Origin: Mycobacterium sherrisii
GTDB taxonomy: Bacteria; Actinomycetota; Actinomycetes; Mycobacteriales; Mycobacteriaceae
Length of the DNA: 64,000 nt
Direction: 5' to 3'
NCBI RefSeq assembly: GCF_002102355.1
Contig: NZ_LQPT01000019.1
Span: 308,455 to 372,454, forward strand
Shown: one piece after another, positions 2,374-50,897 of the stretch
Position numbering within the stretch: position 1 is the first letter of the stretch
Layout of the letters: every line of letters starts with the position of its first letter
Position numbers and translations under genes: made by a program
The notes under the pieces: generated by a model
What the model saw: the letters and a program-made list of their open reading frames with translations, nothing else
What the model was told of the DNA's origin: nothing
Databases searched by the model: none

Positions 2374-2388
2374 GAGAATAGTATTCTC
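2374..2388. promoter_or_regulatory. Palindromic operator, GAGAATA-G-TATTCTC
   Basis: A perfect 7-1-7 inverted repeat in the divergent region between the acyl-CoA dehydrogenase (start 2274) and the TetR gene. The identical 15-mer occurs at 50883-50897, and the same GAGAAT-N3-ATTCTC core occurs at 3239-3253 and 45604-45618. All four copies are intergenic. This is the expected form of a TetR-family operator. Confidence 0.75.
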
Positions 2389-2510
2389 ATGGCAAGAAAG
2401 TTACAATCTCCGACACATGGTCCGTGAGGGGGTCGAGCGCAGCGATGTCACGGCGTTCTCCGGTAGAGTCCAACCATGTTCTCCCCTCGCGGCAACCGTC
2501 CGAGCCTTCC

Positions 2511-3167
2511 GTGACCAACCCGAGCGGAGAGCCGGCCTGGAAGCAGCGCGCCGTCGAGCGATCCATCAAAACCGCGAAACTGCGTGCCGCGCAACGCGTT
2601 CAGCGTTTCCTCGATGCGGCTCAAGCCATCATCATCGAAAAGGGCAGCACCGATTTTACCGTCCAGGAGGTGGTGGACCGCTCGCGCCAGTCGCTACGGA
2701 GCTTCTACCTGCAGTTTGACGGCAAGCACGAGCTGCTCCTCGCGCTGTTCGAAGATGCGTTGAGCCGATCGGCCGATCAGATCCGCGCCGCGACCGAAAG
2801 CCACTCCGATCCCCTGGAGCGGTTGAAAGTGGCGGTCGAGCTGTTATACGAGGCTTCGCGACCCGACCCCGCCGCCAAGCGACCCCTGTTCACCGACTTC
2901 GCCCCTCGGCTGCTGGTGACCCATCCGGCCGAGGTGAAGGTCGCGCATGCGCCGCTGCTCACGCTGCTGACCGAGTTGATGGAAGCCGCCAGCGAGGCGG
3001 GTGAATTGCGCGCCGGACTCAATCCGCGGCGCATCGCCGCGATGACAATGCAAACGGTCATGTTCATCGCGCAGTCCAGCGGCGGCAGCGATGACGCGAC
3101 GATCCATCCGATCACCGCCGACGAGGTGTGGGACTTCTGCTCAGCCGGATTCGTCGGCCAGCGCTAA
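2511..3167 (+). CDS. TetR/AcrR-family transcriptional regulator
   Basis: A 218-residue regulator from the GTG at 2511 (VTNPSGEPAW). The frame is open further up with an ATG at 2445 and a possible start at 2424, but that extension is low-complexity and unlike the family. Residues about 30-75 form the TetR helix-turn-helix (AAQAIIIEKGSTDFTVQEVV, then SRQSLRSFYLQFDGKHELLL). The remainder is the helical ligand and dimerisation domain. It lies between two copies of GAGAAT-N3-ATTCTC, at 2374 and 3239, so autoregulation and control of both neighbours is the simplest reading. The ligand is probably an acyl-CoA (inference). Confidence 0.88.
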   Translation: MTNPSGEPAWKQRAVERSIKTAKLRAAQRVQRFLDAAQAIIIEKGSTDFTVQEVVDRSRQSLRSFYLQFDGKHELLLALFEDALSRSADQIRAATESHSDPLERLKVAVELLYEASRPDPAAKRPLFTDFAPRLLVTHPAEVKVAHAPLLTLLTELMEAASEAGELRAGLNPRRIAAMTMQTVMFIAQSSGGSDDATIHPITADEVWDFCSAGFVGQR

Positions 3168-3468
3168 CCCCCACAACCCTTCTCCCTTGCTCCGGTCCTT
3201 TTCGGCGCCGAGCAGATAGCGCACGCGAGTTGCCTTGTGAGAATGTGATTCTCTAATATTTAGAACGATAAGTAGCCAAAACGGATTCGCCGTTGACACC
3301 CGTTGCCGGGTGATGACAGAGTTCAGTGGCGGCGCCCCGGCGGGTCGGGGCAAACGCGGTGACTGCGAGAGGCGATCGATTACCCCTGACAGCCGGCGCT
3401 TTCCCCATCCACCGGGCCAGCCGGTTTCCGCCGAGACATTCCGGTTCGAACAACTAAGTGAGGTAGCG
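3168..3468. other. Intergenic region with operator, no gene seen
   Basis: About 300 bp between the TetR gene and the mycofactocin-type SDR. It holds the operator at 3239-3253, followed by an AT-rich stretch that could carry the SDR promoter. The SDR frame stays open upstream to 3310, but the extra residues do not resemble the family, and the ATG at 3469 has a GTGAGG ribosome-binding sequence. I see no other gene here. Confidence 0.5.
3239..3253. promoter_or_regulatory. Palindromic operator, GAGAAT-GTG-ATTCTC
   Basis: A 6-3-6 perfect inverted repeat about 215 bp upstream of the SDR start and 70 bp after the TetR stop. It shares both arms with the sites at 2374, 45604 and 50883. An AT-rich run, CTAATATTTAG, follows directly and may be part of the SDR promoter. 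Confidence 0.72.
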
Positions 3469-4320
3469 ATGACTGGACGTGTTGAAGGCAAGGTTGCTTT
3501 CGTCACCGGGGCGGCGCGTGGCCAGGGCCGCAGCCACGCGGTGCGGCTGGCACAGGAGGGTGCCGATATCATCGCCGTCGACATCTGCAAACCCATCCGC
3601 GCGGGCACCGCGGAGGGCCCGGCGATCCCCGCCTCCACGCCCGAAGATCTGGCCGAGACGGCCGATCTGGTGAAGGGCTACAACCGGAGGATCTACACGG
3701 CCGAGGTGGATGTGCGCGACTTCGCGGCGTTGAAGACGGCGGTGGACGCCGGCGTCGAGCAGCTGGGGCGCCTCGACATCATCGTGGCGAACGCCGGGAT
3801 CGGCAACGGTGGTGAGACGCTGGACAAAACCAGCGAAGAAGACTGGACGGAGATGATCGACGTCAACCTGTCCGGTGTCTGGAAATCCGTGAAAGCCGGT
3901 GTGCCCCATATCATCGCCGCCGGACGCGGCGGATCGATCATCCTGACCAGCTCGGTCGGCGGCCTGAAGGCCTACCCGCACACCGGTCACTACGTCGCCG
4001 CCAAGCACGGGGTGGTCGGATTGATGCGCGCCTTCGGAGTCGAACTGGGGCAGCACATGATTCGCGTCAACTCCGTGCATCCCACCCACGTCAGCACGCC
4101 GATGATCATGAACGAGGGCACCTGGAAGATGTTCCGGCCGGACCTGGAAAACCCCGGTCCGGACGACATGGCGCCGATCTGCCAGATGTTCCACACCCTG
4201 CCGATCCCGTGGGTGGACCCGATCGACATCAGCAACGCTGTGCTGTTCTTCGCCTCCGACGAGTCGCGTTACGTCACCGGCGTCACACTGCCGATCGACG
4301 CCGGCAGCTGCCTGAAGTAA
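3469..4320 (+). CDS. Mycofactocin-type short-chain dehydrogenase/reductase
   Basis: A 283-residue SDR. TGAARGQGRSHAVRLAQEG is the nucleotide-binding glycine motif, and DICKPI with a roughly 25-residue insertion after it is the hallmark of the mycofactocin-dependent SDR subfamily, in which the nicotinamide is held tightly and re-oxidised by the peptide-derived cofactor mycofactocin. NAGIGN, the serine in LTSSVGG and YVAAKHG give the SDR catalytic residues. The ATG at 3469 is chosen for its GTGAGG ribosome-binding site. It probably oxidises a secondary alcohol, and the operator at 3239 puts it under the adjacent TetR. Mycofactocin biosynthesis genes are not in this window. Confidence 0.9.
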   Translation: MTGRVEGKVAFVTGAARGQGRSHAVRLAQEGADIIAVDICKPIRAGTAEGPAIPASTPEDLAETADLVKGYNRRIYTAEVDVRDFAALKTAVDAGVEQLGRLDIIVANAGIGNGGETLDKTSEEDWTEMIDVNLSGVWKSVKAGVPHIIAAGRGGSIILTSSVGGLKAYPHTGHYVAAKHGVVGLMRAFGVELGQHMIRVNSVHPTHVSTPMIMNEGTWKMFRPDLENPGPDDMAPICQMFHTLPIPWVDPIDISNAVLFFASDESRYVTGVTLPIDAGSCLK

Positions 4321-4323
4321 CCA

Positions 4324-4740: not shown

Positions 4741-4765
4741 TTTCGCTCCTCGAAGATGCTGGATG

Positions 4766-5257: not shown

Positions 5258-5342
5258 TACTACATGGTGCCCTAATAGTTCGTGCGCTATCTATATGATG
5301 CCTCTCACAGGCGACCGCGGGCGGGGCATACGCTCGGAATCC

Positions 5343-7000: not shown

Positions 7001-7006
7001 CGCCGC

Positions 7007-23856: not shown

Positions 23857-26661
23857 GTGGCGGTGCGCGTGACAACTCATCCGGCGCAGTTGCTGCGCGG
23901 ACGGCGCGCCGAGTGCATGGCGCTCGAGCAGCTGACGGCCGCGGCCCGCGCCGGCGAAAGCCAGGTGCGGGTGTTGCGTGGCGAGGCCGGCATCGGCAAA
24001 ACGGCGCTGCTCGACTATGTGGCCGAGCACGCCAAAGGCTTTCGCACCGCGCGGCTCGCGGGCGTCGAGTCCGAGATGGAGCTGGCATTCGCCGGCTTGC
24101 ACCAACTGTGCACGCCGCTGCTCGACTGCATCGACCGATTACCGGAGCCGCAGCGCGCCGCGTTGGACGTCGCGTTCGGCCGCAGCGTCGGACCGGCACC
24201 CGATCGGTTTCTGGTGGGGTTGGCCATCCTGAGCCTGATCGGCGCCGCGACCGAAACGCAGCCGCTGATCTTCCTTGTCGACGATGCGCAATGGATCGAC
24301 CGCATCTCGGCCCAGACGTTGGCCTTCGTCGCGCGCCGTTTGATCGCCGAACCCGCCGCGTTGCTCTTCGCGGTGCGCGACGGTTGTCCCCACGAGTTCG
24401 GCGGGCTGCCGGAGTTGGTATTGGGCGGGCTCGACTCCGCGGACGCACGCGCATTGTTGGATTCGGCGGTTCTCGGCCGCCTGGACGACCAGGTGCGCGA
24501 TCGGATCGTGGCCGAAACGCGGGGCAACCCGCTGGCCCTTCTCGAGCTGCCCCAGGGGTTGACCGCCGCCGAGATCGCGGGCGGTTTCCAGCGGCCCGAC
24601 GCCCGTCCGCTGGCCGGGCAGATCGAGCAGACGTTCGTGCGCCGGATCCAGTCCCTGCCCGAGGAAACCCAGCGGCTGATGGTGACCGCCGCCGCGGAAC
24701 CGGTCGGTGACGCGGCGTTGCTCGCGCGGGCCGCCGACCGGCTGGGGCTGCCGCCGGACGCGGCGGCGGCGGCCGAGGCGGCGGGGCTGATCGACGTCGG
24801 CACACGGGTGCGTTTCCGCCATCCATTGGTGCGCTCGGCCGCCTACCGGTCGGCCGACTTGCCGCAACGTCGGCGCGTGCACCGGGCGCTGGCGGAGGCC
24901 ACCGACTCCGACGTCGACCCGGACCGGCGCGCCTGGCATTTGGCGAGCGCCGCGTCCGGTCCGGACGAGGCCGTCGCCGCCGCACTCGAGCGCTCGGCCG
25001 ATCGCGCGCAGGCCAGAGGAGGCGTCGCCGCGGCTGCCGCCTTCTGGGAACGGGCGACGCAGCTGACCGTCGACCCGGCTCGCCGTGGCGCCCGCGCGCT
25101 GGCCGCCGCCCAGGCCAAACGCGACGTGGCGGCCTTCGACGCCGCGGTCGAATTGCTGACCATCGCCGAGTCCGCGGCCCTGGACCCCGTGCAGCGGGCC
25201 CGCTCTGTGCGACTGCGCGCCCAGATCGCGTTCGCCCGCAGCCGCAGCGGTGCCGCGGACGCGCCGCTCGTGTCGGACTCGGCCGTCGGCCTGCTCGACG
25301 CGGCGCGCGGGCTGGCGGCCCTGGACGCCCCGTTGTCGCGCGAGACGTATCTCGAAGCGGTCGGGGCCACCCTGTTCGGCGGCCGGCTGTGCCCGCACGG
25401 CGGGATCCAGATGACGGCGCAGGCGGCACGGGCCGCACCGCCCGGACCGAACCCGGCGCGGCCGGTCGATCTGCTGCTCGACGGCATCGCCATCCGCGCC
25501 ACCGATGGCCATGCCGCAAGCGTGCCGGCGCTGCGCGCGGCGCTGGAGCTGGTCCGCGCGGAATCCGGGCGCCGCGACGGCGACGTGATGCGGTGGTTCT
25601 GGCAGGCCTTCCCCATCGTGCAGGAATCCGCGGCTCACGAAGTGTGGGATGACGACGTCTGGCATCAGCTGGCCACCGAATCGGTGCGGCTGGCCCGCGA
25701 GGCGGGCGCGCTGGCCGTGCTTCCGCATGCCCTGGTGTACCGGGCCGGTGTGCACCTGCAGGCCGGCGAGTTCGCGTCGGCCTCGGCGCTGATCGAGGAA
25801 GCCAACGCCATCAGCGCCGCCACGGGCGACGCCCCGGTCAAATACCACTCGGTGCTGCTCGCCGCGTGGCGCGGTGCCGATGGTGAGGCCCTCCAACTGA
25901 TCGAGACCGCGGCGGCCGACGGCATGTCGCGTGGGGAGGGACGAGTCCTCGGTCTGACCGGCTATGCCAAGGCCGTGCTTTACAACGGTCTCGGTCGCTA
26001 CCCGGATGCGTTCGCCGCCGCCCGTCAGGCCTGCGAAGACGACGACTACGGGTTGTTCGGCTGGTGCTTGATCGAACTCATCGAGGCCGCCGCCAGAAGC
26101 GGCGAACGCGCGGCGGCCGAGGCTGCCCTGCGTCAACTCGAAGAGCGCGCGCTGGTCACCGGAACCGATTGGGCCGCAGGAGCTTTGGCGCGGTCACGCG
26201 CATTGCTGACCGATGACGGCGCCGCCGAAGGCCGCTACCGGGAGGCGATCGAACGACTCGGGCGCACGCGCATCGTCGTGCACCTGGCCCGCGCCCACCT
26301 CGTCTACGGAGAGTGGCTGCGTCGGTGCAACCGCCGCATCGACGCTCGCACCCAGTTGCAGACCGCCCACGAAATGTTCGGGCGGATGGGCGCCGAGCCG
26401 TTCGCCGCGCGTGCTCGCCGCGAACTGTTGGTCACCGGACAAAAGGTGAGCAGGCGCGGCCGCCCAAGCGCGCCGGGCGAGGAGTTGACCGCCCAGGAGG
26501 CGCAGATCGCCCGGCTGGCCGGTGCGGGCCTGACCAATCCCGAAATCGCCGCGCAGTTGTTCATCAGCGCGCACACCGTCGAATGGCACCTGCGGAAGGT
26601 GTTCGCCAAGCTCGGCATCACCTCACGCCGACAACTGCGGGGTATCGAGCTGGCCCCCTGA
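23857..26661 (+). CDS. Large ATP-binding LuxR-family (LAL) transcriptional regulator
   Basis: About 934 residues from the GTG at 23857 (GTGs at 23863 and 23869 are alternatives; the frame extends to 23686 but overlaps the membrane gene). An AAA-type ATPase domain comes first: Walker A GEAGIGKTALLD near residue 45, Walker B LIFLVDDAQWID near 140. A long helical, TPR-like middle follows, and a C-terminal LuxR helix-turn-helix (LTAQEAQIARLAGAGLTNPE, then SAHTVEWHLRKVFAKLG). Such MalT/LAL proteins are signal-dependent activators. The target may be the adjacent oxidoreductase and copper oxidase genes downstream, which is inference. Confidence 0.93.
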   Translation: MAVRVTTHPAQLLRGRRAECMALEQLTAAARAGESQVRVLRGEAGIGKTALLDYVAEHAKGFRTARLAGVESEMELAFAGLHQLCTPLLDCIDRLPEPQRAALDVAFGRSVGPAPDRFLVGLAILSLIGAATETQPLIFLVDDAQWIDRISAQTLAFVARRLIAEPAALLFAVRDGCPHEFGGLPELVLGGLDSADARALLDSAVLGRLDDQVRDRIVAETRGNPLALLELPQGLTAAEIAGGFQRPDARPLAGQIEQTFVRRIQSLPEETQRLMVTAAAEPVGDAALLARAADRLGLPPDAAAAAEAAGLIDVGTRVRFRHPLVRSAAYRSADLPQRRRVHRALAEATDSDVDPDRRAWHLASAASGPDEAVAAALERSADRAQARGGVAAAAAFWERATQLTVDPARRGARALAAAQAKRDVAAFDAAVELLTIAESAALDPVQRARSVRLRAQIAFARSRSGAADAPLVSDSAVGLLDAARGLAALDAPLSRETYLEAVGATLFGGRLCPHGGIQMTAQAARAAPPGPNPARPVDLLLDGIAIRATDGHAASVPALRAALELVRAESGRRDGDVMRWFWQAFPIVQESAAHEVWDDDVWHQLATESVRLAREAGALAVLPHALVYRAGVHLQAGEFASASALIEEANAISAATGDAPVKYHSVLLAAWRGADGEALQLIETAAADGMSRGEGRVLGLTGYAKAVLYNGLGRYPDAFAAARQACEDDDYGLFGWCLIELIEAAARSGERAAAEAALRQLEERALVTGTDWAAGALARSRALLTDDGAAEGRYREAIERLGRTRIVVHLARAHLVYGEWLRRCNRRIDARTQLQTAHEMFGRMGAEPFAARARRELLVTGQKVSRRGRPSAPGEELTAQEAQIARLAGAGLTNPEIAAQLFISAHTVEWHLRKVFAKLGITSRRQLRGIELAP

Positions 26662-28360: not shown

Positions 28361-29959
28361 ATGCCGGTGCAGCCCACCCGTGGGGGTCCCTTCGGTGCAC
28401 GGCTCACCCGGCGCGGGTTCATGGCGGCGGGCCTTGCGGGCGGACTGACGCTGGCCGCGTGCGGACAGTCCAAGTCGACGGCGCCGAGCAGTGCCACCAA
28501 GATGGCGGATGCGATCGCCGCGGCGGAGGCGGCCCGGCCGCACAGCGGACGCACGGTGACGGCCAGGTTGACCGCGCAGGTCAGGCAGATCGATCTGGGT
28601 GGGCCCGTAGTCCGGACGCTGACCTTCGGTGACACGATCCCCGGCCCGCTGATCCGGGCCGCGATCGGGGACGAGCTTGTGGTGCGGGTCTCGAACAACC
28701 TCGATCGGCCGACATCGGTGCACTGGCACGGTATCGCGTTGCGCAACGACATGGATGGCGCCGAGCCGGCGACACCGGACATCGCAGCCGGGCAGGAATT
28801 CACTTACCAGTTCTCGGCGCCGGATTCGGGTACCTTCTGGGGCCATCCCCACACCGGCCTCGACGAGGACACCGGCTTGTATGTGCCGGTCATCATCGAT
28901 GATCCGACCGAGAGTGACTACGACGTCGAATGGATTGTGGTCCTTGATGATTGGACCGACGGTGTGGGCAGGAGCCCGCACCAACTCTACGAGGAACTCA
29001 CCAATCCGAACAAGACGAACGTGCCGCCCCCACCCGAAACCATGTCATCGACCACGAGTACCCCCACGTCGGAGACGAGCACCCCCGCAACCACAGCAAC
29101 CTCCATTAGCCCGTCGCCGCCCGCGGCCCCCGCGCGCGTCGGCACCAGTGATCTTCTCGGCGGCGATGCGGGCGACATCGCCTACCCGTTCTATCTGATC
29201 AACGGCCGAATTCCCGCCTCCCCCACCGTCTTCAACGCAAAGCCCGGCCAGCGGATCCGGATCCGTTTCATCAACGCCGGTTCCGACACCGCGTTTCGCG
29301 TCGCGCTGGCCGGCCACACCATGACCGTCACCCACACCGACGGGTTTCCCGTCATACCGACGGAGGTCGACGCACTGCTCATCGGGATGGCAGAACGATA
29401 CGACGTCATCGTGACCGCGGCCGAGGGGATCTTCCCACTGGTCGCGCTGGCCGAAGGCAAAAACGCGCTGGCGCGCGCGTTGCTGTCCACCGGCAAGGGC
29501 AGCCCGCCCGATGCCCAATTCCAGCCGACGGAACTCACCAAGCGGGTGGGCACCGTCGCGATGTTCGCTGCCACGACACCAGCCCGGCTTCCGCGTCCCG
29601 ATCCCGGTCTCGACCTTCCGGTCGTGTTGGGCGGCAACATGATCCAGTACGACTGGATAATCAACGGCGAGCCCTACAGCAAGACCAGTCCGCTGCGCGT
29701 GCAGCAGGGGCAACGGCCCACCATCACGTTCGACAACACCACCGTGATGTATCACCCCATCCACCTGCACGGGCACACCTTCCAGCTGATCAATCCCGAC
29801 GGAACGCTGGGCGCCCGTAAGGACACCCTGATCGTGCTGCCCAAACAGAAGATGCTTGCCGTGCTGGTCGCCGACAATCCCGGCGTGTGGCCACTGCACT
29901 GCCACAACACCTATCACCAAGTCGCGGGGATGATGACCCGGCTGGAGTACACCCTTTAA
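28361..29959 (+). CDS. mmcO: Tat-exported lipoprotein multicopper oxidase, MmcO-like
   Basis: 532 residues. The N-terminus has twin arginines (LTRRGFM, 17-18) and a lipobox LAAC with Cys34, so it is exported folded and lipid-anchored. Copper ligands: HWHG (121-124), HPH (162-164), HPIHLHGH and the terminal HCHNTYHQVAGMM with an axial Met. This layout matches the copper-resistance oxidase MmcO of M. tuberculosis. Between the cupredoxin domains sits a low-complexity Ser/Thr/Pro-rich stretch (about 221-259) that looks like a glycosylatable linker. AAGGAG precedes the ATG. I see no RicR-type copper box upstream. Confidence 0.9.
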   Translation: MPVQPTRGGPFGARLTRRGFMAAGLAGGLTLAACGQSKSTAPSSATKMADAIAAAEAARPHSGRTVTARLTAQVRQIDLGGPVVRTLTFGDTIPGPLIRAAIGDELVVRVSNNLDRPTSVHWHGIALRNDMDGAEPATPDIAAGQEFTYQFSAPDSGTFWGHPHTGLDEDTGLYVPVIIDDPTESDYDVEWIVVLDDWTDGVGRSPHQLYEELTNPNKTNVPPPPETMSSTTSTPTSETSTPATTATSISPSPPAAPARVGTSDLLGGDAGDIAYPFYLINGRIPASPTVFNAKPGQRIRIRFINAGSDTAFRVALAGHTMTVTHTDGFPVIPTEVDALLIGMAERYDVIVTAAEGIFPLVALAEGKNALARALLSTGKGSPPDAQFQPTELTKRVGTVAMFAATTPARLPRPDPGLDLPVVLGGNMIQYDWIINGEPYSKTSPLRVQQGQRPTITFDNTTVMYHPIHLHGHTFQLINPDGTLGARKDTLIVLPKQKMLAVLVADNPGVWPLHCHNTYHQVAGMMTRLEYTL

Positions 29960-33938: not shown

Positions 33939-35651
33939 TCAGGCCAGACTGGCAAGGTGTTTCGCGGCGACGAAGCCGAATGTCATGGCGGGACCGATCG
34001 TCGCCCCCGCTCCCGCATAGCTGCGGCCCATCACCGGTGCCGAGGTGTTGCCCACCGCATACAACCCGGGCACGACGGTCCGGTCGGGCCGCAGCACCCG
34101 GGCGTATTCGTCGGTCAGCAGACCGCCCGAGGTGCCGAGATCGCCGAGCACGATGCGGAACGCGTAGTAGGGCGGGTCGCCCAGCGGATACAGATTCGGA
34201 TTGGGCAACGTCGCATCGCCGTAGTAATTATCGTAAACGCTGTCCCCCCGGTTGAAATCGTCGTCGTGACCTTTGCGCGCGAGCTCGTTGAAACGCGCCG
34301 CGGTGGCCCGAAGTTCGGCCGCCGGGACGCCGATCTTGACCGCCATCTCGTCCCAGCTGTTCGCCGCTTTGACCACACCGGATTCCAGCCAGGCCGACGG
34401 CACCTTGCGCCCGGTGGGGACCGGCGCGAAGGGAATCTTCGGTATCGGCAGATGCCCGCCCACCACGTAGCGGTTGAAGGACCGGTGATCGGTGATCAGC
34501 CAGCACGGGATGTGGGTGACCCCGGACTTCTGCCCCTCGATCATGGCGTGGCCGAAATCCATGTACGGCGCCGCCTCGTTGATGAAGCGCTTGCCGTCGC
34601 CGTTGACGATGAACTGCGCAGGCATCATCCGCTCGTTGAGCATGAATTGCATCCGCCCGTCCGGCCATTGGATGGCCGGGAACCACCAGGCCTCGTCGAG
34701 CAGATCGGTTGCAGCGCCGACCTTTTGGCCGGCGCGGATGCCGTCCCCGGTGGCGGCGGGATTGCCGAAGCTCCAGTCCTGCGCCAGCACCGGCAGCTCC
34801 TCCTTGCGCCAGGCGAGGTCGTGATCGAATCCGCCGGATGCCAGGATCACCCCTCGCCGCGCGCCAATTCGTTGCGCGTCGCCGGCACGCTCGATCATCA
34901 CACCGGTCACCGCGCCGTCGGCGTCGGTGAGCAATTCGGTCATCGGGGCGTTCAACCAAAGTGGGACGTCACACTCACGCATCGCTAGTCGCAACCGCGC
35001 CGCTAGCGACTGGCCGATCGCGGCCATCCGCTCGTTGAACACCCGCGCCTTGAACATTCGCCACATCAGTTTCACCAGCACACCCTTGCCGGCCCACGAC
35101 TGCCTGATCCGGTAGAAGGTCCGAAGCTCTTTGGGGCCCAACCATATTCCCCGGGGAGCCAGCGCCAGGGGTTGCAACAACGTCTGCTCATCGGGGCCCA
35201 GCTTGCGCAGATCGATGGCCGGCACATTGATGGTGCTGCCCAGCTGCGAGCCCCCGGGCAATTCCGGGTAGTAGTCGGCGTAGCCGGGCTTCCAGACGAA
35301 TTCGAACCAGCCGGACAGGCCCTCGAGGAACTCGAGCATCTTCGGGGCGGACTCGACGTACTGTCGGATGCGCGCCTCGCTGACCAGACCGTCGGTGATC
35401 TTGAGCAGGTATCCGACCACACCCTCGGGGTCCGGGCAGTAGCCCTCCCGGCGTTGCGCCGGCGCGCCGGGCACCCAGATGCCGCCGCCGGACAACGCGG
35501 TGGAACCCCCGAAGTACGGCGATTTTTCGACCACGAGGGTCTTGAGTCCGGACACGTGCGCGGTCAGGGCGGCGGCCATGCCGCCGCCGCCGGACCCGAC
35601 GATCACCACGTCGACGATGTGGTCGAAGTCGTCCATCTGGGTTCCGGTCAT
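33939..35651 (-). CDS. FAD-dependent dehydrogenase, 3-ketosteroid-delta1-dehydrogenase-like
   Basis: 570 residues from the ATG at 35651, overlapping the mhpB-like stop by [25 protein letters not shown] is the FAD-binding motif and [15 protein letters not shown] the KstD/fumarate-reductase signature. The C-terminus has [21 protein letters not shown], the second FAD contact typical of KstD. It would desaturate a cyclic ketone, ultimately giving a phenol when repeated. Its place beside a phenol hydroxylase and an extradiol dioxygenase suggests ring aromatisation followed by cleavage (inference). Confidence 0.92.
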
Positions 35652-39904: not shown

Positions 39905-41530
39905 ATGTCTTGGGACCCCGAAATCGACCTCGAAACCGATGTCGTCGTGCTGGGGACCGGCGGCGCCGGGCTCACCGCCGCCCTGTCGGCGGCCGCCGCG
40001 GGCGCATCGGTAGAGGTGTTCGAAAAGGCCGCGACCATCGGCGGGACCACCGCGGTATCGGGCGGCGTGGTATGGATTCCGGCCCATAAACGTTGTCCCG
40101 ACGGCGAATTGACCGAGATCGATGCGCTGCGCTACCTGCGTGCCCAGTCCCTCGGTCAGATGGACGACGACTTGGTCGAAACGTTCGTCCGGACCGGTCC
40201 GGCCATGCTGGAGTTCGTCGAGGCGCACAGCGGCCTGCGCTTCGAAGTCGCCGCCGGCTTCCCGGATTACCGTCCGGAGCTGCCGGGGGGACGACCGACG
40301 GGTGGCCGGTCACTCAGTGCGGGACCGTTCGACCTCAACCAGATAGGTGAGTGGGGCGGCCGGATCACCTCGTTTCCCGCCGACTGGTCCAACGTCGGTT
40401 TCGATGCCGAGACGCGCGCTCGTCTGCACGCGGCGATCGAGGAAGGCAGCGAACTGTGTGTGGCCGGCACCGCCTTGATCGCGGGGCTGCTCAAGGGGTT
40501 ACTCGACGCCGGGATCACCCCGCACACCAATGCTCGTGCCGAAGAGCTCATCGCCAAGGGCGGCGAGATCGTCGGCGTGCGCATCGCGCTCGCCGAACGC
40601 ACCATCCGGGTGCGCGCCAGGCGCGCAGTTGTATTGGGAGTCGGCGGTTTTGAGTGGGATCCGCGGTTGGTGCAGGCCTTCCTGCGCGGACCCATGCACG
40701 GTGCGGTCTCCCCGCCCAACAACACCGGCGACGGCCTGCGCATGGCGATGGCACACGGCGCGGATCTGGGCAACATGGGCGAGGCCTGGTGGGTGCCGAT
40801 CGTCCAGATTCCCGGCGACACCATCGACGGCAAGCAGCGCAGCCGCAGCGTGCGGCTGGAGCGGACCCGGCCGCGCAGCATCATCGTCAACCAGGCCGGG
40901 CACCGGTTCGTCAACGAGGCCTGCGACTACAACTCGATGGCCGGCGCGTTCCACTACCTGGACCCGCGGGGCGGCTACGTCAACGACCGCGGATGGATGA
41001 TCTTCGATTCGGTTCACTTGCGGCGCTACGGTTTTCTCGGTGTGGCGCCCGGCGAGCCGGTCCCCGACTGGTTCTGCGAATCCGCGGACCTCACCGAACT
41101 GGGCGCCAAGACCGGTATCGACGCCGACGGGCTGATCCGCACGGTCGAGGAGTGGAATCGCCACGTGGCCCGGGAGGTCGATCCCCAGTTCGGCCGGGGT
41201 TCGAGTGCCTACGACGGCTACTGGGGCGACGACAGCGCCACCACCGTCGCCGGGAAGACGCTCGGCCCCATCGACACCGCGCCGTATTACGCGGTACCGG
41301 TGCGCATCGGCGCGATGGGGACCAAGGGCGGGCCGCGCACCGACCACGACGGCCGCGTGCTTCACGTCAGCGGGGAGCCCATCCCCGGGCTGTTCGCCGC
41401 GGGCAACACGATGGCCGGGGCGACCGGGCGGGCCTACGGTGGGGCGGGCGGAACGATCGGCCCGGCAATGGTTTTCGGCTACCGTGCCGGCTACACCGCC
41501 GCAACCGGGAAATCGGTAGATCAGGGCTAA
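39905..41530 (+). CDS. Second FAD-dependent KstD-like dehydrogenase
   Basis: 541 residues from the ATG at 39905 (AAGGG nine bases upstream; ATG 39896 is poorly spaced). TDVVVLGTGGAGLTAALSAA binds FAD, TIGGTTAVSGGVVWIPAH is the KstD-like signature, and TGRAYGGAGGTIGPAMVFGY the C-terminal FAD contact. It resembles but is not a close copy of the protein at 33939-35651, so the pathway has two cyclic-ketone or acyl desaturases. It is co-transcribed with the IclR gene. Confidence 0.91.
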   Translation: MSWDPEIDLETDVVVLGTGGAGLTAALSAAAAGASVEVFEKAATIGGTTAVSGGVVWIPAHKRCPDGELTEIDALRYLRAQSLGQMDDDLVETFVRTGPAMLEFVEAHSGLRFEVAAGFPDYRPELPGGRPTGGRSLSAGPFDLNQIGEWGGRITSFPADWSNVGFDAETRARLHAAIEEGSELCVAGTALIAGLLKGLLDAGITPHTNARAEELIAKGGEIVGVRIALAERTIRVRARRAVVLGVGGFEWDPRLVQAFLRGPMHGAVSPPNNTGDGLRMAMAHGADLGNMGEAWWVPIVQIPGDTIDGKQRSRSVRLERTRPRSIIVNQAGHRFVNEACDYNSMAGAFHYLDPRGGYVNDRGWMIFDSVHLRRYGFLGVAPGEPVPDWFCESADLTELGAKTGIDADGLIRTVEEWNRHVAREVDPQFGRGSSAYDGYWGDDSATTVAGKTLGPIDTAPYYAVPVRIGAMGTKGGPRTDHDGRVLHVSGEPIPGLFAAGNTMAGATGRAYGGAGGTIGPAMVFGYRAGYTAATGKSVDQG

Positions 41531-44600: not shown

Positions 44601-45488
44601 TCAGTCCGGGTGACCACCGGCGCGCAGCAGCAGCCGCTCGGCGGCCGAGTACGGGTCGTCGCGGCCGTCGACGACGGATTCGGCAAGCCCGTCGAGATCC
44701 GGCTGCGCGCGCAACAGGCTGTGCGCCAGGGACAGGATCTGGGCGCGGGCACGAGCCGCCCGACGCGCGCGGTTGTCGCTGCGGTGGTGATCGTCGATGG
44801 CGGTGACGAGCTCGGCGATGCCGTCGCCCCGTGCCGCGACGAGGCTGATGATCGGCGCGTGGGTTTCGGCGCGCAGATCCCGCACCGTCTGTTCGGCGCC
44901 GTCCCGGTCGGCCTTGTTGACCGCCACGATGTCGGCGACCTCCAGCAGGCCGGCCTTGGCGGCCTGCACCGCGTCGCCGGCGCCGGGGTTGAGGATGACG
45001 ACGGTGGGGTCGGCGACGGCGGCGATCTCGATCTCCGATTGGCCCACCCCGACGGTTTCCAGCAACACCAGCTCGTAGCCGATCGCGCCGAGCACCCGGA
45101 TCGCCGCCGGGACTGCGGCGGCCAGGCCGCCGAGATGGCCGCGGCTGGCGACCGAACGAATCAACACGTCAGAGTCGTTGATATGCGCGGTCATTCGAAT
45201 GCGGTCACCGAGCAGTGCACCGCCGCTGAACGGCGAAGACGGGTCGACGGCCAACACGGCCACCCGCGAGCCACGCCCGCGATAGGCCCCGACCAGGGCC
45301 GTCACCGTCGTCGACTTGCCCGCACCGGGTGGGCCGGTGATGCCGATGACGCGCACCGTGTACGGTGTTGCGGGGCCGATACTCGCCAGCACCTCCTCGC
45401 GCCGGTCACCCTCGACGAGACTGAGCAACCGACCGGCGGCACGCGGAGATCCGTTGCGCGCCCAGGAAATCAGGTCGGCGATGGTCAT
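44601..45488 (-). CDS. meaB: MeaB/ArgK-family G-protein chaperone for B12-dependent mutases
   Basis: 295 residues. GITGPPGAGKSTTVTALVGA is the P-loop, VDPSSPFSGGALLGDRIRMT the family signature, LLETVGVGQSE the switch region and VNKAD the guanine-specificity motif. MeaB protects and reloads methylmalonyl-CoA-mutase-type enzymes with adenosylcobalamin, and a split mutase of that class is encoded 9.5 kb away at 54991-56991. The ATG at 45488 overlaps the stop of a 32-codon leader ORF (ATGA). An operator of the GAGAAT-N3-ATTCTC type lies upstream at 45604. Confidence 0.93.
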   Translation of the reverse strand: MTIADLISWARNGSPRAAGRLLSLVEGDRREEVLASIGPATPYTVRVIGITGPPGAGKSTTVTALVGAYRGRGSRVAVLAVDPSSPFSGGALLGDRIRMTAHINDSDVLIRSVASRGHLGGLAAAVPAAIRVLGAIGYELVLLETVGVGQSEIEIAAVADPTVVILNPGAGDAVQAAKAGLLEVADIVAVNKADRDGAEQTVRDLRAETHAPIISLVAARGDGIAELVTAIDDHHRSDNRARRAARARAQILSLAHSLLRAQPDLDGLAESVVDGRDDPYSAAERLLLRAGGHPD

Positions 45489-45583: not shown

Positions 45584-45603
45584 GCTTTCCTCCAGATGGG
45601 CAT

Positions 45604-45618
45604 GAGAATTTTATTCTC
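45604..45618. promoter_or_regulatory. Palindromic operator, GAGAAT-TTT-ATTCTC
   Basis: A perfect 6-3-6 inverted repeat, 21 bp before the leader ORF of meaB on one side and 141 bp before the S33 hydrolase on the other. It has the same arms as the sites at 2374, 3239 and 50883. It probably links both flanking genes to the TetR regulon. Confidence 0.73.
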
Positions 45619-45759
45619 TCAACAGGAGAGTGCCAGTTGCAATAACGACCGGCCCGCGAGACTGCAACGAGCGCCGGCCCTCGGGTAACGCGTCGTAGTT
45701 GCAGTGTCGCGGACAGAATAGGGGCACGGTTCACGACTACGAGGAGGCGACGCCCGGCC

Positions 45760-46647
45760 ATGACCCAATCGCAGGGAACAATCGCGGTGCCGGGCGGCAA
45801 GGTCTGGTTCAAGCGAGTCGGTGGTGGGCCGGGCCGCCCGCTGCTCGTCGTTCACGGCGGCCCGGGCGTCCCGCACGACTACCTGCTGGCGTTGCAGCGC
45901 CTGGCCGACGAGCGAGAGGTCATTTTCTGGGATCAGCTCGGTTGCGGGAATTCCGAATGCCCTTCGGACACCGGACTGTGGACGATGAATCGCTCGGTCG
46001 CCGAGATGGACGCCGTGATCGATGCCCTCGGCCTGGAACGTTTCCACCTCTTTGGCAACTCGTGGGGCGGCATGCTGGCCCAGCAGTACGTGCTCGACGT
46101 GCCGACGACCGCGGTGAGCCTGACGATCTCGAACAGCATCGCCTCCATTCCCCAGTTCTCCGGCATGGTGGCACGGTTGAAGCGCGAGCTGGATCCGGCT
46201 ACCCAGGCCGCCATCGACCGCCACGAATCCGCCGGTACGACGTCCTCAGCCGAATACCAGGACGCGATTCGCACGTGGAACGAGACGTATCTGTGTCGGG
46301 TCCGGCCGTGGCCGTACGAGCTGCAGGACGCGTTCGCCCGGATAGGGGTCGAGATTTACACAACGATGTTCGGGCCCAGCGACTTTCACATTGTCGGAAC
46401 GGTGCGCGACTGGGACGTCTTCGACCGGCTGGCCGAGATCCGAGTGCCGACCCTCGTCCTCGCCGGCCGGTACGACGAATGCGCTCACGAGCACATGTGG
46501 CAGATGCACCAGCGGATCAAGGATTCACGGTTCGAGTTGTTCGAGGCCAGTTCGCACATGCCGTTCATCGAGGAGCCGAAGCGCTTCGACAATGTGCTGC
46601 GAGATTTTTTGCGGCATAACGACGCTACCGGTCGTCGACCAACGTGA
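45760..46647 (+). CDS. S33-family alpha/beta hydrolase, proline-iminopeptidase-like
   Basis: 295 residues. VVHGGPGVPHDYL is the oxyanion motif, FWDQLGCGNS the S33-specific segment, and LFGNSWGGMLAQ the nucleophile elbow; the catalytic His is in SSHMPFIEEP. In a catabolic cluster it is more likely an esterase, epoxide hydrolase or amidase than a peptidase. GAGGAGG lies 11 bases before the ATG. It diverges from meaB under the operator at 45604 and is convergent with the crotonase. Confidence 0.88.
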   Translation: MTQSQGTIAVPGGKVWFKRVGGGPGRPLLVVHGGPGVPHDYLLALQRLADEREVIFWDQLGCGNSECPSDTGLWTMNRSVAEMDAVIDALGLERFHLFGNSWGGMLAQQYVLDVPTTAVSLTISNSIASIPQFSGMVARLKRELDPATQAAIDRHESAGTTSSAEYQDAIRTWNETYLCRVRPWPYELQDAFARIGVEIYTTMFGPSDFHIVGTVRDWDVFDRLAEIRVPTLVLAGRYDECAHEHMWQMHQRIKDSRFELFEASSHMPFIEEPKRFDNVLRDFLRHNDATGRRPT

Positions 46648-46660
46648 CCGGCCGCTCGGC

Positions 46661-47428
46661 TCAGTTCTTTCCGGCGGTCAGTTTGTCAACGATCGTGCGG
46701 AAGTCTTCGGTCACGAAGGACTGGCTTTCGGCACAGAGCGCATAGTCGAGGCTGGCGAGCACGGCGCGTTCCAGATGGATGTTGAGCACCCGCTTCGTGC
46801 TCTCGACGGCTTGCTGCGGCAAGTCCAAGATTTTTCTCGCGCAATCGATCGCCTCGTCGACGGGATCGGCCGCGACGTGGTTGGCCAATCCGAGCTCCAC
46901 GGCCCGCCGTGCGCTGATGCGCCGGCCCGTCAGCGCGTATTCCTTGGCCAGCATCAGGCTGATGTGCAGCGGCCAGGTCAGCGGACCGCCGTCGGCGGCC
47001 ACCAGTCCCACCTGGACATGCGGATCGGCGAGGTAGGCGTCTTCGGCGATGTAGACGAGGTCACTCAGCGCGACGAGGCTGCAACCCAGGCCGACCGCGG
47101 GCCCGTTGACAGCCGCTATCACCGGGATTCGGCATCGCGCCATGCCCAGCACGATCTCGCGACCGTCCCGAATCGTCTTGGCACGCAGCTCGGCATCACC
47201 CGAAAGCTCCTTGAGGTAGGTGAAGTCGCCGCCGGCCGAAAACGCCCGGCCCGCACCGGTGATCACGGCCGCGCGGGCGGTGGGGTCGTCGGTGAGCCGC
47301 TGCCAGATTCGGGCCAGTCCAGAGTGCAGATCATCGTTGACCGAGTTCAGCGAGTCCGGACGGTTCAACGTGATGATGCGCAGGGCCCCGTCGGCACGGA
47401 CGTCGATTTCAGCAGGCATGTCGTACAC
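46661..47428 (-). CDS. Enoyl-CoA hydratase/isomerase family protein
   Basis: 255 residues from the GTG at 47428 (GGGAG seven bases upstream; ATG 47419 is the alternative). ITGAGRAFSAGGDFTYL and AVNGPAVGLGCSLVALSDLV form the oxyanion hole of the crotonase fold. The catalytic glutamates are not certain, because the second helix reads HVQVGLVAADGGPLTW. It begins one base after the acyl-CoA dehydrogenase stop and is the last gene of the synthetase-dehydrogenase-hydratase operon, a beta-oxidation-like set. Confidence 0.9.
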   Translation of the reverse strand: MYDMPAEIDVRADGALRIITLNRPDSLNSVNDDLHSGLARIWQRLTDDPTARAAVITGAGRAFSAGGDFTYLKELSGDAELRAKTIRDGREIVLGMARCRIPVIAAVNGPAVGLGCSLVALSDLVYIAEDAYLADPHVQVGLVAADGGPLTWPLHISLMLAKEYALTGRRISARRAVELGLANHVAADPVDEAIDCARKILDLPQQAVESTKRVLNIHLERAVLASLDYALCAESQSFVTEDFRTIVDKLTAGKN

Positions 47429-47429
47429 G

Positions 47430-48518
47430 TCAGACTCCCAATCCCAAAATTCGTGAAGCGATGATGTTCTTCTGTATCTGCGATGTTCCACCCATCACGC
47501 TTTGCGCGCGGCTGTACAGGTACGCGCTGAGCAGATCTGGGTCGCGGGTCCCCGAGGTGGCCAGTGCGGCGTGCCCCACGGATTGTTCGACCCAGGTCAT
47601 CAGCAGCTTGTCGAGTGAGCCTTCCGAACCGTGGGACACACCATCGAGCTGTTCGGAAAGCCGCCGGCGCACGTGATGGGTCAGCATGTCGGACTGCACC
47701 GCCGCCCAGGCCAACTCTTCCGATATCTCGCCCTCGTTGCGGCTCAACAATTCTCGGACAAGCTTGCCGTATCGTGCCGCATAGCCGAGGGTGGCGGGCT
47801 CGCGTTCGTGCCCGACAACCGTCATTGCCACGGCCCACCCGTCACCGGGTGCGCCGACCATCCGGCCGGCGGGCACCGTGGCGCCGTCGAAGAACACCTG
47901 GCCGAACTCGTTCGTGACGCCGTTCATCATCTGAAGCGGACGTTGTTGCACACCAGGCTGATTCATCGCGACCACGAACGCCGACAGGCCACGGTGCCGC
48001 TTGGCTTCGGGATCGGTGCGGGCCAGCAACAGACACCAGTCGGCGACGTCGGAGTAGCTGGTCCAGATCTTGTGTCCGTGGATGACGTAGTTGTCACCGT
48101 CCCTCGTGGCAGTCGTGGTCAGCGACGCCAGGTCGGAGCCGGCTACCGGTTCGCTGAAGCCCTGGCACCAGCGTTCGGTGCCGTTGATGATGCCGGGCAG
48201 AAACCGCTTGCGCAGTTCGTCGTTGGCATGCGCGCCGATGCCATAGACCAGATAACCGACGCTGGGTCGCGGTGGTGCGCCGGCGCGCACCAGCTCCTCG
48301 TCGACGATGACGTCGTACACCGGTGCCAGGTCCTGCCCGCCCCAATCGCGCGGCCAGGACAGGCCGAAAAACCCGTTCTCGTACAGGGCGCGGTGCCAGT
48401 CGGCCATGCGCACCCAGTACTCGTCACCCGAGCCGGAGAACTCCTTGGCATGCTCGGTAAGCCAGGTGCGCAGGCGCATCCGAAATGCGGCCTCGTCGGG
48501 CGAGTCACGAAAGTCCAA
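47430..48518 (-). CDS. Acyl-CoA dehydrogenase, alpha-type subunit
   Basis: 362 residues. FSEPVAGSDLASLTTTA and HGHKIWTSYSDVADW are the flavin-binding central domain, and MGGTSQIQKNIIASRILGLG the C-terminus. It starts 14 bp inside the shorter acyl-CoA dehydrogenase gene, so the two are translated together. A long and a short FadE in tandem are typical of mycobacterial alpha2beta2 heterotetramers that dehydrogenate bulky, sterol-side-chain-like acyl-CoAs (family knowledge; the substrate here is unknown). Confidence 0.91.
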   Translation of the reverse strand: MDFRDSPDEAAFRMRLRTWLTEHAKEFSGSGDEYWVRMADWHRALYENGFFGLSWPRDWGGQDLAPVYDVIVDEELVRAGAPPRPSVGYLVYGIGAHANDELRKRFLPGIINGTERWCQGFSEPVAGSDLASLTTTATRDGDNYVIHGHKIWTSYSDVADWCLLLARTDPEAKRHRGLSAFVVAMNQPGVQQRPLQMMNGVTNEFGQVFFDGATVPAGRMVGAPGDGWAVAMTVVGHEREPATLGYAARYGKLVRELLSRNEGEISEELAWAAVQSDMLTHHVRRRLSEQLDGVSHGSEGSLDKLLMTWVEQSVGHAALATSGTRDPDLLSAYLYSRAQSVMGGTSQIQKNIIASRILGLGV

Positions 48519-49419
48519 AATCGATCTCCTTCAACCTGACGGGCCACAGCTCCGTCGATGTCAGTGCGCGGCGCAGGTAGACATGGGCGATGCACTCCCA
48601 GGTATTGCCGATGCCGCCGTGCACCTGAACCGTCGTCTCGCACACCGTTCTGGTGGCACGCGCGCAGTAGACCTTCGCCATCTGCGCGGCGCGGATGGCC
48701 CGTGCCGGTTCGAGTTCGTCGACGCCCCACGCGGCATGCCGCAACACGCTGATCGAACCTTCGATCAACGCCAGGCTTTCCGCGAGCAGGTGAGCGACGG
48801 CCTGATACGACCCGATCGGCCTGCCGTACTGTTCGCGAATCTTGGCGTAGTCACAGGCGACGGCGTGAGCACCGCGGGCGATGCCGACCAAATCCGCCGC
48901 CGTGATGACCAACGCGAGCGCCTGCCAGCGGGCCGCCTCGTCGGCGGGGAGGTCTCCGAGAGTCTGTGCAGCGCTGCCTAATTCGGCATCTTCGCGGGTC
49001 AAATCAGCACTCGCACGAATGCCACCGACGCCCGTGCTCCGCACCGTACGGCCGGACAACCACAGCGCGCGGCGGGCGCCTCGTGCATCGACCGCACGGT
49101 CGTCGACCGCCACGGTCGCCGCGGGTGTTCCGTCGACCTCGGCACCGAGGCGGCGAACCAGGTCATCAGCCAGTACGGGACCGAGGAACGGGCTGTCGAC
49201 CAGGCGGCGGCCGAATTCCTCGGCGACGATTGCGACGTCGAATCCGGTGGCTCCATCGGAGCGCAGCGATCGCCACCCGGTTGCTGCGATCTGCTTGTCC
49301 AAACGGGTGATTCGGCTCTCGTCGGCGAGGTCCTGCACGGTCGCCGGCCCGAGGTCGTCGGCCAGCTTGGCGGCAGCATCGCGCAATTGCTGCTGTTCAG
49401 CTGTCAGTCGTACATCCAT
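48505..49419 (-). CDS. Acyl-CoA dehydrogenase, short beta-type subunit
   Basis: 304 residues, shorter than the usual 380 because parts of the N-terminal and middle domains are reduced. KIREQYGRPIGSYQAVAHLL and TVQVHGGIGNTWECIAHVYL match beta subunits of mycobacterial heterotetrameric FadE pairs. It overlaps the synthetase gene by 23 bp upstream and the alpha-type gene by 14 bp downstream, so all three are tightly coupled. Confidence 0.9.
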   Translation of the reverse strand: MDVRLTAEQQQLRDAAAKLADDLGPATVQDLADESRITRLDKQIAATGWRSLRSDGATGFDVAIVAEEFGRRLVDSPFLGPVLADDLVRRLGAEVDGTPAATVAVDDRAVDARGARRALWLSGRTVRSTGVGGIRASADLTREDAELGSAAQTLGDLPADEAARWQALALVITAADLVGIARGAHAVACDYAKIREQYGRPIGSYQAVAHLLAESLALIEGSISVLRHAAWGVDELEPARAIRAAQMAKVYCARATRTVCETTVQVHGGIGNTWECIAHVYLRRALTSTELWPVRLKEIDFGLS

Positions 49420-50812
49420 AGCGCTCCTTAAGCACTCGGCGCAGTACCTTGCCCGACGGCAGGCGAGGAATATCCGGCACGAACACGATCCGGCTCAGGC
49501 GTTTGTAGGAGGCCAGCGTCTCGTCGACCCGGGCGGTGAGGTCCGCGGCGACGGCCTGCACGTCGGCTTTATGGCGCGTGGTGATCGCGGCGACGACGGC
49601 CTCTCCATTGATTCCGTCCGGAATTCCGAACACCGCACAGTCCTCGACTGCGGGGTGAGCGTGCAGCACCGTTTCGATCTCGGCCGGAGCGACTTGGAAT
49701 CCGCGCACCTTGATCATTTCCTTGAGCCGGTCGGTGATCCGCAACCAGCCGTCCCCGTCGAGCCAGCCCACGTCGCCGGTGCGATACCACCCGTCGCACA
49801 TCACCTCGTTGGTGGCCGCGGCGGGCAGATATCCCGCCATCAGCGTGGTGGAGCGGGCCTGGATCTCCCCGACCTCGCCCGGTCCGACCGGCCGGCCGGT
49901 CAGCAACGAGACGACTCGCAGCTGCACCCCTGGCACCGCGCGTCCCACGGTATCCAGCCGCGCATCGTCGAGCGGATTGCACGCGATCACCGGCAATTCC
50001 GTGGTGCCGTAGGCCGGAACCCAGCCGACACCGATGCGCCGGGTCACCGTTTCGGCCACGCTCGCGGTGACCGGCGTCGCGCCCCACATGATGTAGCGCA
50101 ATGACGACAGGTCGTACGACTCCAGCGTCGGATGGGATGCGATGGCCAACGCTATCGGTGCGACGGCCATTTCGATTGTGATGCGGTCCTTTTCGATGTG
50201 GTGCAACATTCGGTCGATGTCGAAGCGCGGGTGCAGCCGCACCTGGACGCCGGTGCGCAGCGCCGTGAGGATGTTCAGCAACCCCAGGATGTGCGACGGC
50301 GGGGTGGTTATCTGTATCCGGTCTCGGGAGGTCAGTTGCAGCGCGTCGCGCCAGTGCAGCACGGCGTCGGTCAGCGCGGCGTGGCTGTGCCGGACGGCCT
50401 TCGGTAAACCGGTGGTGCCCGAACTGAACACCAGCACGGCGTCGTTGGTCGGCGGACCCGAGATCGCGATCGGCTCCACCGCGGGGACCGGGTCGTCCAG
50501 GTGCAACATCGGCATCAGCGAGTCCAGGACCGGATGATCGCCGACGGCGTGCCCAGGTTCGGTGAGTCCCAGCGCGTCGTCGACCTCGTCGTGTTTCCAT
50601 GCCGGACTGATCAGCACCGCGGTCGCGCCCAGCCGCCAGATCCCCAGCAGGACGGCGACGAATTCCGGTCGGTTGGCGGACATGACGGCGACGCGGTGGC
50701 CCGCGGCGACCCCCCGTTTGCGCAGCGCGACGGCCAGACCGTTGGCCAACGCGTCGAGTTGCGGCACGCTGAAATGCCGTTCCTCGAACACGAGCGCGGC
50801 CGGCTCGCTCAC
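49397..50812 (-). CDS. AMP-forming acyl-CoA synthetase
   Basis: 471 residues, a little short for the family. LVFSSGTTGLPKAVRHSHAA is the P-loop-like AMP motif, GWYRTGDVGWLDGDGW the hinge region, and PRLPSGKVLRRVLKE carries the catalytic Lys. It activates a carboxylic acid to its CoA ester at the cost of ATP and feeds the two dehydrogenases and hydratase downstream. It diverges from the ferredoxin operon, with the perfect operator at 50883-50897 between them. Confidence 0.92.
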   Translation of the reverse strand: MSEPAALVFEERHFSVPQLDALANGLAVALRKRGVAAGHRVAVMSANRPEFVAVLLGIWRLGATAVLISPAWKHDEVDDALGLTEPGHAVGDHPVLDSLMPMLHLDDPVPAVEPIAISGPPTNDAVLVFSSGTTGLPKAVRHSHAALTDAVLHWRDALQLTSRDRIQITTPPSHILGLLNILTALRTGVQVRLHPRFDIDRMLHHIEKDRITIEMAVAPIALAIASHPTLESYDLSSLRYIMWGATPVTASVAETVTRRIGVGWVPAYGTTELPVIACNPLDDARLDTVGRAVPGVQLRVVSLLTGRPVGPGEVGEIQARSTTLMAGYLPAAATNEVMCDGWYRTGDVGWLDGDGWLRITDRLKEMIKVRGFQVAPAEIETVLHAHPAVEDCAVFGIPDGINGEAVVAAITTRHKADVQAVAADLTARVDETLASYKRLSRIVFVPDIPRLPSGKVLRRVLKERYGCTTDS

Positions 50813-50882
50813 CCGTCTTGTCCTTCCCCGCAGGCCAGGCGCACCCGACAGCGGCGCAGTAGAGAAGATGCTATCGCTAGGT

Positions 50883-50897
50883 GAGAATAGTATTCTC
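50883..50897. promoter_or_regulatory. Palindromic operator, GAGAATA-G-TATTCTC (second identical copy)
   Basis: Identical over 15 bp to the site at 2374-2388 beside the TetR gene. It lies 71 bp upstream of the acyl-CoA synthetase and 63 bp upstream of the ferredoxin start, so it can control both divergent operons. Confidence 0.77.

Follow-up and report, generated by a model that had tools for sequence, protein, structure and literature searches.

A short palindrome, GAGAAT-N3-ATTCTC, recurs between the genes of a catabolic region of Mycobacterium sherrisii, of which a 64-kb stretch (C19:308455-372454, hereafter the window) was analyzed; positions without a contig name refer to the window. We propose that this palindrome is the operator of TetR1, a TetR-family regulator of 218 amino acids encoded at 2511..3167 (+), and that TetR1 would act as an autorepressor and as the repressor of a regulon with seven or more promoters within 107 kb. 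Judging from the sequence, we give this reading a probability of about 85%. The N-terminal helix-turn-helix (HTH) of TetR1 matched the TetR model PF00440 (31.5 bits, cut-off 24), which places the protein among the TetR-family one-component regulators.

A palindrome restricted to intergenic DNA

Within the window the palindrome occurs in exact form at 2374, 3239, 45604 and 50883, the positions given in an initial annotation of the region, and no further site with up to two mismatches is present anywhere in the 64 kb. The 15 bp at 2374 and 50883 are identical (GAGAATAGTATTCTC), as had also been noted. Dinucleotide shuffles of the window gave a mean of 0.97 matches with up to two mismatches (maximum 4); the four observed sites are all exact. 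The genome-wide scan (5.56 Mb, 128 contigs) found eight exact copies versus 0.043 expected under an order-2 Markov model, while the reversed pattern, used as a control, was found nowhere in the genome. Seven of the eight lie within 107 kb of contig C19, between 252802 and 359337. Three of these are located 5.1, 27.2 and 55.7 kb to the left of the window start, and the window's right edge is also the end of the contig. The eighth is unlinked (contig C77, position 86722). Weaker sites are present at C19:274308 and C19:282737 (one mismatch each) and at C19:297054 (two mismatches). The four sites described initially were thus real, but the set had been understated.

In the 136 kb around and including the window, the seven exact sites compare with 0.0011 expected under the same type of model. 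Pairs of half-sites were found seven times at a spacing of 3 and not once at spacings of 0-2 or 4-12, and GAGAAT ranked first among all palindromes built from a hexamer, N3 and its complement (7 of 84; runner-up 3). Genes of this region were predicted with a purpose-written simple gene finder, and the seven C19 sites overlapped with the predicted genes by 0 bases. The claims that all copies stand between genes and that they exceed chance hold in this genome region, and a spread of the motif through coding DNA, which would have spoken against the proposal, was not seen there.

Position of the site relative to TetR1

Conservation was assessed in 80 named Mycobacterium loci, the best 80 among 382 relatives. 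In 79 of them an exact site precedes the TetR1 match by 129-145 bp, M. tilburgii (three mismatches) being the sole exception. In 60 further loci, seven of which had been added for being discordant, a site within 250 bp of TetR1 was exact in 49 and carried one mismatch in 6. The site ahead of the neighboring short-chain dehydrogenase/reductase (SDR) was exact in 44 of the 80 loci and had one mismatch in 25 and two in 6 (75 with up to two), and the site at the CMD and DitZ-like genes, covered by 73 of the loci, was exact in 70. The spacer bases of the SDR site were conserved at 48-73%, a value calculated from exact sites only, in which identity of the half-sites is given by construction. The HTH region was near-invariant among 25 aligned TetR1 orthologs of 66-98% identity.

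In nine distant genomes, 40 regions of 5 kb picked around known sites contained 43 exact sites. TetR1 was accompanied by a site in all nine, and in all nine a site lay 23-24 bp ahead of the start of an amidohydrolase of 396 amino acids. Sites were also found at the CMD/DitZ-like genes (5 of 9), at a small acyl-coenzyme A (CoA) dehydrogenase and amidohydrolase (4), at MeaB (3), at CYP150 (3) and at the ferredoxin and ligase (1). A single one of the 43 was intragenic, within an acyl-CoA dehydrogenase homolog (locus L198, G157:C1:5429724), and one more (L222) had no recognizable neighbor.

Among 200 genomes of the order, TetR1 was detected at E ≤ 1e-50 in 22; of these, 21 belong to the same genus and G321 to a different genus within the family. 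The G321 genome contains 10 exact sites. It encodes TetR1 twice, at 76% and about 60% identity, with one site 134 bp from the first copy and another about 170 bp from the second. The remaining sites are partly found at orthologs of the genes discussed here: ligase/ferredoxin, CMD, the amidohydrolase, a KstD-like flavoprotein and TetR2, the second TetR of the cluster. In seven genomes of the family without TetR1 at the same threshold, six had no site and one (G352) had a single site whose neighbor was not recognizable.

Co-occurrence of TetR1 and the motif was determined in 297 genomes of the same genus, with TetR1 orthologs called at E ≤ 1e-60 and the motif counted in the T-extended form TGAGAATN3ATTCTC; the tables were crossed by hand. 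The motif was present in 240 genomes and TetR1 in 245, leaving 52 without the regulator. Both were found in 237 genomes and neither in 49, while 8 had TetR1 only and 3 the motif only (11 discordant). The Fisher p-value of 9e-44 was obtained without correction for kinship and overstates independence, because the genomes are related. Among the eight with TetR1 only, two (G139, G170) carry an exact site before TetR1 that lacks the leading T, and two others (G056, G177) a one-mismatch site before the gene. Genomes tend to have the site, the regulator and the pathway genes all together or to lack all three. A palindrome-defined regulon centered on the TetR gene at 2511-3167, as first suggested in the initial annotation, is supported by this co-occurrence, by the sites before TetR1, by the orthologous target promoters and by the two copies in G321.

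Genes at the proposed operators and the possible substrate

Operator 1 (GAGAATAGTATTCTC, 2374..2388, C19:310828) is common to TetR1 and a divergent acyl-CoA dehydrogenase of 391 amino acids (1099..2274, -; assigned by Pfam/NCBIfam). Operator 2 (GAGAATGTGATTCTC, 3239..3253, C19:311693) precedes the SDR of 283 amino acids (3469..4320, +), and TetR1 stands between the two sites, as had been described. The SDR passed the mycofactocin-coupled model TIGR03971 (330.6 bits, cut-off 300) using the shorter start, in agreement with its first description; this start is most likely the ATG at 3469, since alignment to solved relatives begins at residue 1. Operator 3 (GAGAATTTTATTCTC, 45604..45618, C19:354058) lies between a MeaB-type GTPase, a chaperone of acyl-CoA mutases (44601..45488, -; TIGR00750, 244.7 bits, cut-off 240.75), and an alpha/beta hydrolase of the proline-iminopeptidase family (45760..46647, +; TIGR01250). 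Operator 4 (GAGAATAGTATTCTC, 50883..50897, C19:359337) is conserved at the corresponding divergent promoter of G212 and of G321. On its left the operon starts with an AMP-forming acyl-CoA ligase (49397..50812, -), followed on the same strand by a short-partner acyl-CoA dehydrogenase of 304 amino acids (48505..49419), an acyl-CoA dehydrogenase of 349 (47430..48479) and an enoyl-CoA hydratase of 255 (46661..47428). On its right, all on the plus strand, are a 2Fe-2S ferredoxin of 100 amino acids (50960..51262), a protein of 110 amino acids without a family match (51283..51615) and an amidohydrolase (PF04909, 51644..52906) whose best solved relative is DitZ (8uyr, E 2.4e-136). The MeaB, alpha/beta hydrolase, ligase and ferredoxin assignments at operators 3 and 4 come from Pfam/NCBIfam.

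Behind the exact site at C19:303358 (5.1 kb left of the window) a rightward row encodes a CMD protein, a Rieske oxygenase alpha subunit, an Amidohydro_1 protein, a SnoaL_4 protein and two acyl-CoA dehydrogenases, the last of which enters the window with its 3' part (1..726, +; 272 amino acids). A second amidohydrolase, then an acyl-CoA dehydrogenase, an enoyl-CoA hydratase, a thiolase and TetR2 lie on the other side. The site at C19:252802 has the 396-residue amidohydrolase (PF04909) and a CoA ligase on one side and an enoyl-CoA hydratase opposite, and that at C19:281247 is found at a small and a large acyl-CoA dehydrogenase. The unlinked site at C77:86722 is embedded in a longer palindrome (CCATGGAGAATAGCATTCTCCATGG) at a row of genes for an APH-type kinase, an SDR, an acyl-CoA dehydrogenase and another TetR; it recurs ahead of the kinase in G091 and G026. 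The weaker sites are located at a CaiB-type CoA transferase and an SDR (274308), at an amidohydrolase (282737) and 26 bp ahead of a CYP150-type P450 (297054).

The proposed targets therefore comprise DitZ-like and other amidohydrolases, paired acyl-CoA dehydrogenases, CoA ligases, a carveol-dehydrogenase-type SDR, a ferredoxin and MeaB. Such enzymes fit a pathway in which a cyclic terpenoid or sterol-like lipid is broken down stepwise and CoA-dependently, a reading that we give about even odds. Among solved structures, two regulon amidohydrolases are closest to DitZ (E 2.4e-136 and 1.6e-110) and next to PtmU3; a third is closest to 4dzi. The nearest solved relative of the SDR is 3uve, titled 'carveol dehydrogenase'. 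The CYP150-type P450 matched CYP150A6 best (E 9e-151) and adjoins two small ferredoxins with CXXHXXC and CXXNXXC motifs. A different substrate, for instance branched-chain or aromatic acids, has a chance slightly below even, and the pairing of operator and regulator would still be right in that case. The enzyme families are broad, the names DitZ and carveol dehydrogenase come from database titles, and Rieske oxygenases, MhpA-like hydroxylases and HsaD-like hydrolases also occur in aromatic pathways. What speaks against such a substrate is that one region combines DitZ-like enzymes and CYP150 with small and large acyl-CoA dehydrogenases in pairs, KstD-like flavoproteins, a gene with an MCE domain and a split B12-dependent mutase.

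Several other genes of the region were recorded. The split B12-dependent acyl-CoA mutase (54991-56991, -) consists of a catalytic subunit of 525 and a B12-binding subunit of 140 amino acids, and is encoded about 9 kb from the meaB of the regulon. It could be an isobutyryl-CoA mutase or another branched acyl-CoA mutase, and MeaB would be its chaperone. Two KstD-like flavin adenine dinucleotide (FAD) dehydrogenases are encoded at 33939-35651 (-) and 39905-41530 (+), and the ortholog of the latter in G321 has an operator 141 bp away. Between 36513 and 39891 there are an MhpA-like hydroxylase, an HsaD-like hydrolase and a divergent IclR regulator. In G266 an exact palindrome lies between the orthologs of the hydrolase and the IclR gene; none within two mismatches is present here. 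MCE-type lipid-import genes were found at C19:263-267 kb onward (L015), where one protein contains Mce4_CUP1 and MlaD domains and its neighbors looked alike by eye. No operator is near a multicopper oxidase related, below the cut-off, to CopA-type copper resistance proteins (28361-29959, +) or near an AAA/LuxR-type regulator of 914 amino acids (23917-26661, +). The protein at 54050-55006 passed an NCBIfam family named for MSMEG_4879. The accessible text of one study lists the clusters MSMEG_4835-4843 and MSMEG_4864-4873 of M. smegmatis as cholesterol-induced (PMC4881515), and a tie between these clusters and the window genes is only a lead.

Overlap of the proposed operators with probable promoters

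Candidate promoters were read as matches to consensus boxes. At operator 1, putative overlapping divergent promoters (2378..2407) are suggested by consensus and column conservation. The leftward candidate has a -35 box TTGTAA (2401-2406), a spacer of 17 bp and a -10 box TACTAT (2378-2383) within the operator; the rightward candidate -10 box, TACAAT (2402-2407), overlaps the leftward -35 box. The segment GAAAGTTACAATCTC (2396-2410), 22 bp from operator 1, differs from the operator at three positions and is conserved by more than 95% at most columns in 79 loci; it may represent either a second weak operator or merely the overlapping promoter boxes. The putative SDR promoter (3230..3259, +), read from the sequence and from the conservation of the flanks, would consist of TTGCCT (3230-3235), 18 bp and TAATAT (3254-3259), with operator 2 in the spacer. 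All ten promoters compared for the 396-residue amidohydrolase have TTGC at -35 and, 17-18 bp farther on, a -10 box TANNAT that the operator itself forms. At the CMD and CYP150 genes a conserved TTGAC box lies upstream and the operator farther downstream, so that no single geometry applies to all sites.

The first spacer base was A, with a rightward -10 box, at the 396-residue amidohydrolase (10/10), at operator 1 (79/79) and at meaB (4/4). This pattern broke down at the CMD (44/70), SDR (3/44) and CYP150 (0/3) sites, and a general rule that A in this position marks a rightward -10 box was rejected.

The overlap of operator and promoter fits steric repression. That TetR1 binds the sites but activates some or all of the promoters appears unlikely. 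TetR-type activators such as FasR do exist. The FasR model (NF053731) was among the weak NCBIfam matches of TetR1, at 30.7 bits against a cut-off of 330, a score at which identity with FasR was rejected. The non-uniform geometry, with the CMD and CYP150 sites downstream of the TTGAC box, would also suit an activator. However, an operator placed between the -35 and -10 boxes (SDR) or holding the -10 box (amidohydrolase, acyl-CoA dehydrogenase) rather fits repression. The membership proposed in the initial annotation (the acyl-CoA dehydrogenase, the SDR, MeaB and the oxidation operons) is supported, but the regulon appears larger than it stated, and the probable overlap with core promoters had been missed.

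TetR1 or TetR2 as the regulator

Several observations weigh against TetR1 as the repressor. One concerns TetR2 (C19:297662-298291), which is encoded behind the DitZ-like amidohydrolase operon. TetR2 was found in 229 of the 297 genomes, 228 of them with the T-type motif; one genome had TetR2 only, 12 the motif only and 56 neither. Co-occurrence therefore cannot separate the two regulators, because TetR2 tracks the motif about equally (13 versus 11 discordant genomes). Similarly, TetR1 is not separable from its pathway in this way, since the 396-residue amidohydrolase was lost along with it and is kept in only 2 of the 52 genomes lacking TetR1 (absent from 50 of 52). One TetR1 genome (G089) has merely a three-mismatch site near the gene, and three others (G063, G205, G286) have no site within three mismatches near it. 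Conversely, three genomes carry the motif but no TetR1 at E ≤ 1e-20: G044 and G278 with one site each, and G148 with seven T-type motif counts and TetR2. Their assemblies consist of about 170 (G044), 700 (G148) and 610 (G278) contigs, and that of G148 is 93% complete. Two TetR1 copies each are present in 12 genomes of the genus (e.g., G016, G022, G101), and no exact site lies within 16 kb of the second copy in G016 or in G022. Finally, the SDR operator lies 216 bp ahead of the SDR start.

Binding of the sites by another regulator of the cluster, chiefly TetR2, with TetR1 merely one of the targets, is nevertheless quite improbable in our view. In its favor, the only TetR2 genome without the T-type motif (G170) has exact T-less sites, G148 has the motif and TetR2 without TetR1, and the TetR2 ortholog of G321 has a site at a distance of 177 bp. 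However, of the 17 genomes with TetR1 and without TetR2, ten keep the T-type motif. Nine of these were checked at TetR1 (G041 was left out), and in eight a site lay 122-145 bp upstream; the exception was G026, where only the conserved site at the APH kinase is exact, which also counts against TetR1. Moreover, two sites flank TetR1 in the window, and one stands beside each TetR1 copy in G321. TetR1 is favored over TetR2 because the position of the site follows TetR1 in the named loci, in the genomes without TetR2 and at the two copies in G321, and TetR1 is very probably the repressor of the regulon.

Chance or a repeat element as the origin of the sites is practically negligible: the low complexity of the half-site and the roughly one two-mismatch site per window expected by chance are all that speaks for it, whereas chance was ruled out by the Markov expectation (0.001 exact sites in 136 kb), the shuffles and the genome count, and a repeat because spacers and flanks differ between sites (spacer identity 0.48-0.73 in the 44 exact SDR sites, with fixed half-sites) while their orthologous positions are conserved in many species.

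A model of the regulon and its relation to known systems

In the proposed mechanism, a TetR1 dimer would sit on the 15-bp palindrome, which overlaps the -10 box or the spacer between the -35 and -10 boxes, and would therefore keep RNA polymerase off the promoter. TetR1 would repress its own gene together with the divergent acyl-CoA dehydrogenase, and a regulon comprising no fewer than seven promoters across the 107 kb of catabolic genes; the unlinked C77 operon and a few weaker sites of the region probably belong to the regulon, too. TetR1 would be released by an inducer which, by the habits of the family, is most likely a CoA thioester formed in the pathway. CoA thioesters are the inducers of KstR-type regulators.

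The KstR and KstR2 regulons share with the present system a TetR regulator, a short palindrome, a divergent site of the autoregulation type and many operons for CoA-dependent ring catabolism. Their operators have half-sites of the AAC/GTT and CAAG/CTTG type, differing from GAGAAT/ATTCTC. TetR1 was rejected as a KstR, scoring 21.1 bits with the KstR equivalog model NF033703 against a cut-off of 280, and TetR1 is missing from many genomes of the genus (52 of 297). A second comparison is with the dit catabolism of abietane diterpenoids in Pseudomonas abietaniphila, to which DitZ, judging by its name, presumably belongs; its relation to the two regulon amidohydrolases is one of similarity, not function. 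The accessible text of PMC13063091 mentions neither DitZ nor regulation. The CYP150A5/CYP190A3 locus of M. marinum, with Fdx7 and Fdx8, appears to combine a CYP150-type P450 and ferredoxins of the same CXXHXXC and CXXNXXC motifs as found here (PMC6237146). According to the accessible part of that paper, CYP150A5 hydroxylates the norisoprenoid beta-ionone and the two ferredoxins have no counterpart in M. tuberculosis or M. ulcerans; regulation is not described there. Balhana et al. (2015; PMC4482099) reported palindromic operators that, as in the present case, separate TetR genes of mycobacteria from their divergent neighbors; M. tuberculosis genes were the starting point of their 30 cases. Neither GAGAAT nor ATTCTC occurs in the accessible text of that paper, in which the motif logos are given as figures only and fell outside the comparison. 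Six forms of the motif gave no match in a full-text search of 5.39 million papers (figures, supplements and subscription papers lay outside it), and no paper on this regulon surfaced in literature searches. As far as these searches reach, it is a new, widespread TetR catabolic regulon of a kind already known.

A more far-reaching reading is tentative, and we rate it just short of an even chance. TetR1 might be the master repressor of an undescribed cyclic-terpenoid system that is present in most sampled Mycobacterium species and was lost elsewhere as a unit of regulator, operators and genes. Its operator would be fused with the promoter, the half-sites being fixed by the repressor, whereas the orientation of the embedded -10 box would determine the three spacer bases.

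The analysis provides an operator, a likely regulator and a list of targets for a catabolic region found in most sampled species of Mycobacterium, a genus that includes many opportunistic pathogens and in which the amidohydrolases and acyl-CoA dehydrogenases of this region are functionally unassigned. As one exact 15-mer defines the regulon, the proposal lends itself to direct tests, and knowing what induces TetR1 would show which substrate the pathway acts on. Regulator, sites and genes are lost together, and this loss may serve as a marker for species that lost part of their environmental diet.

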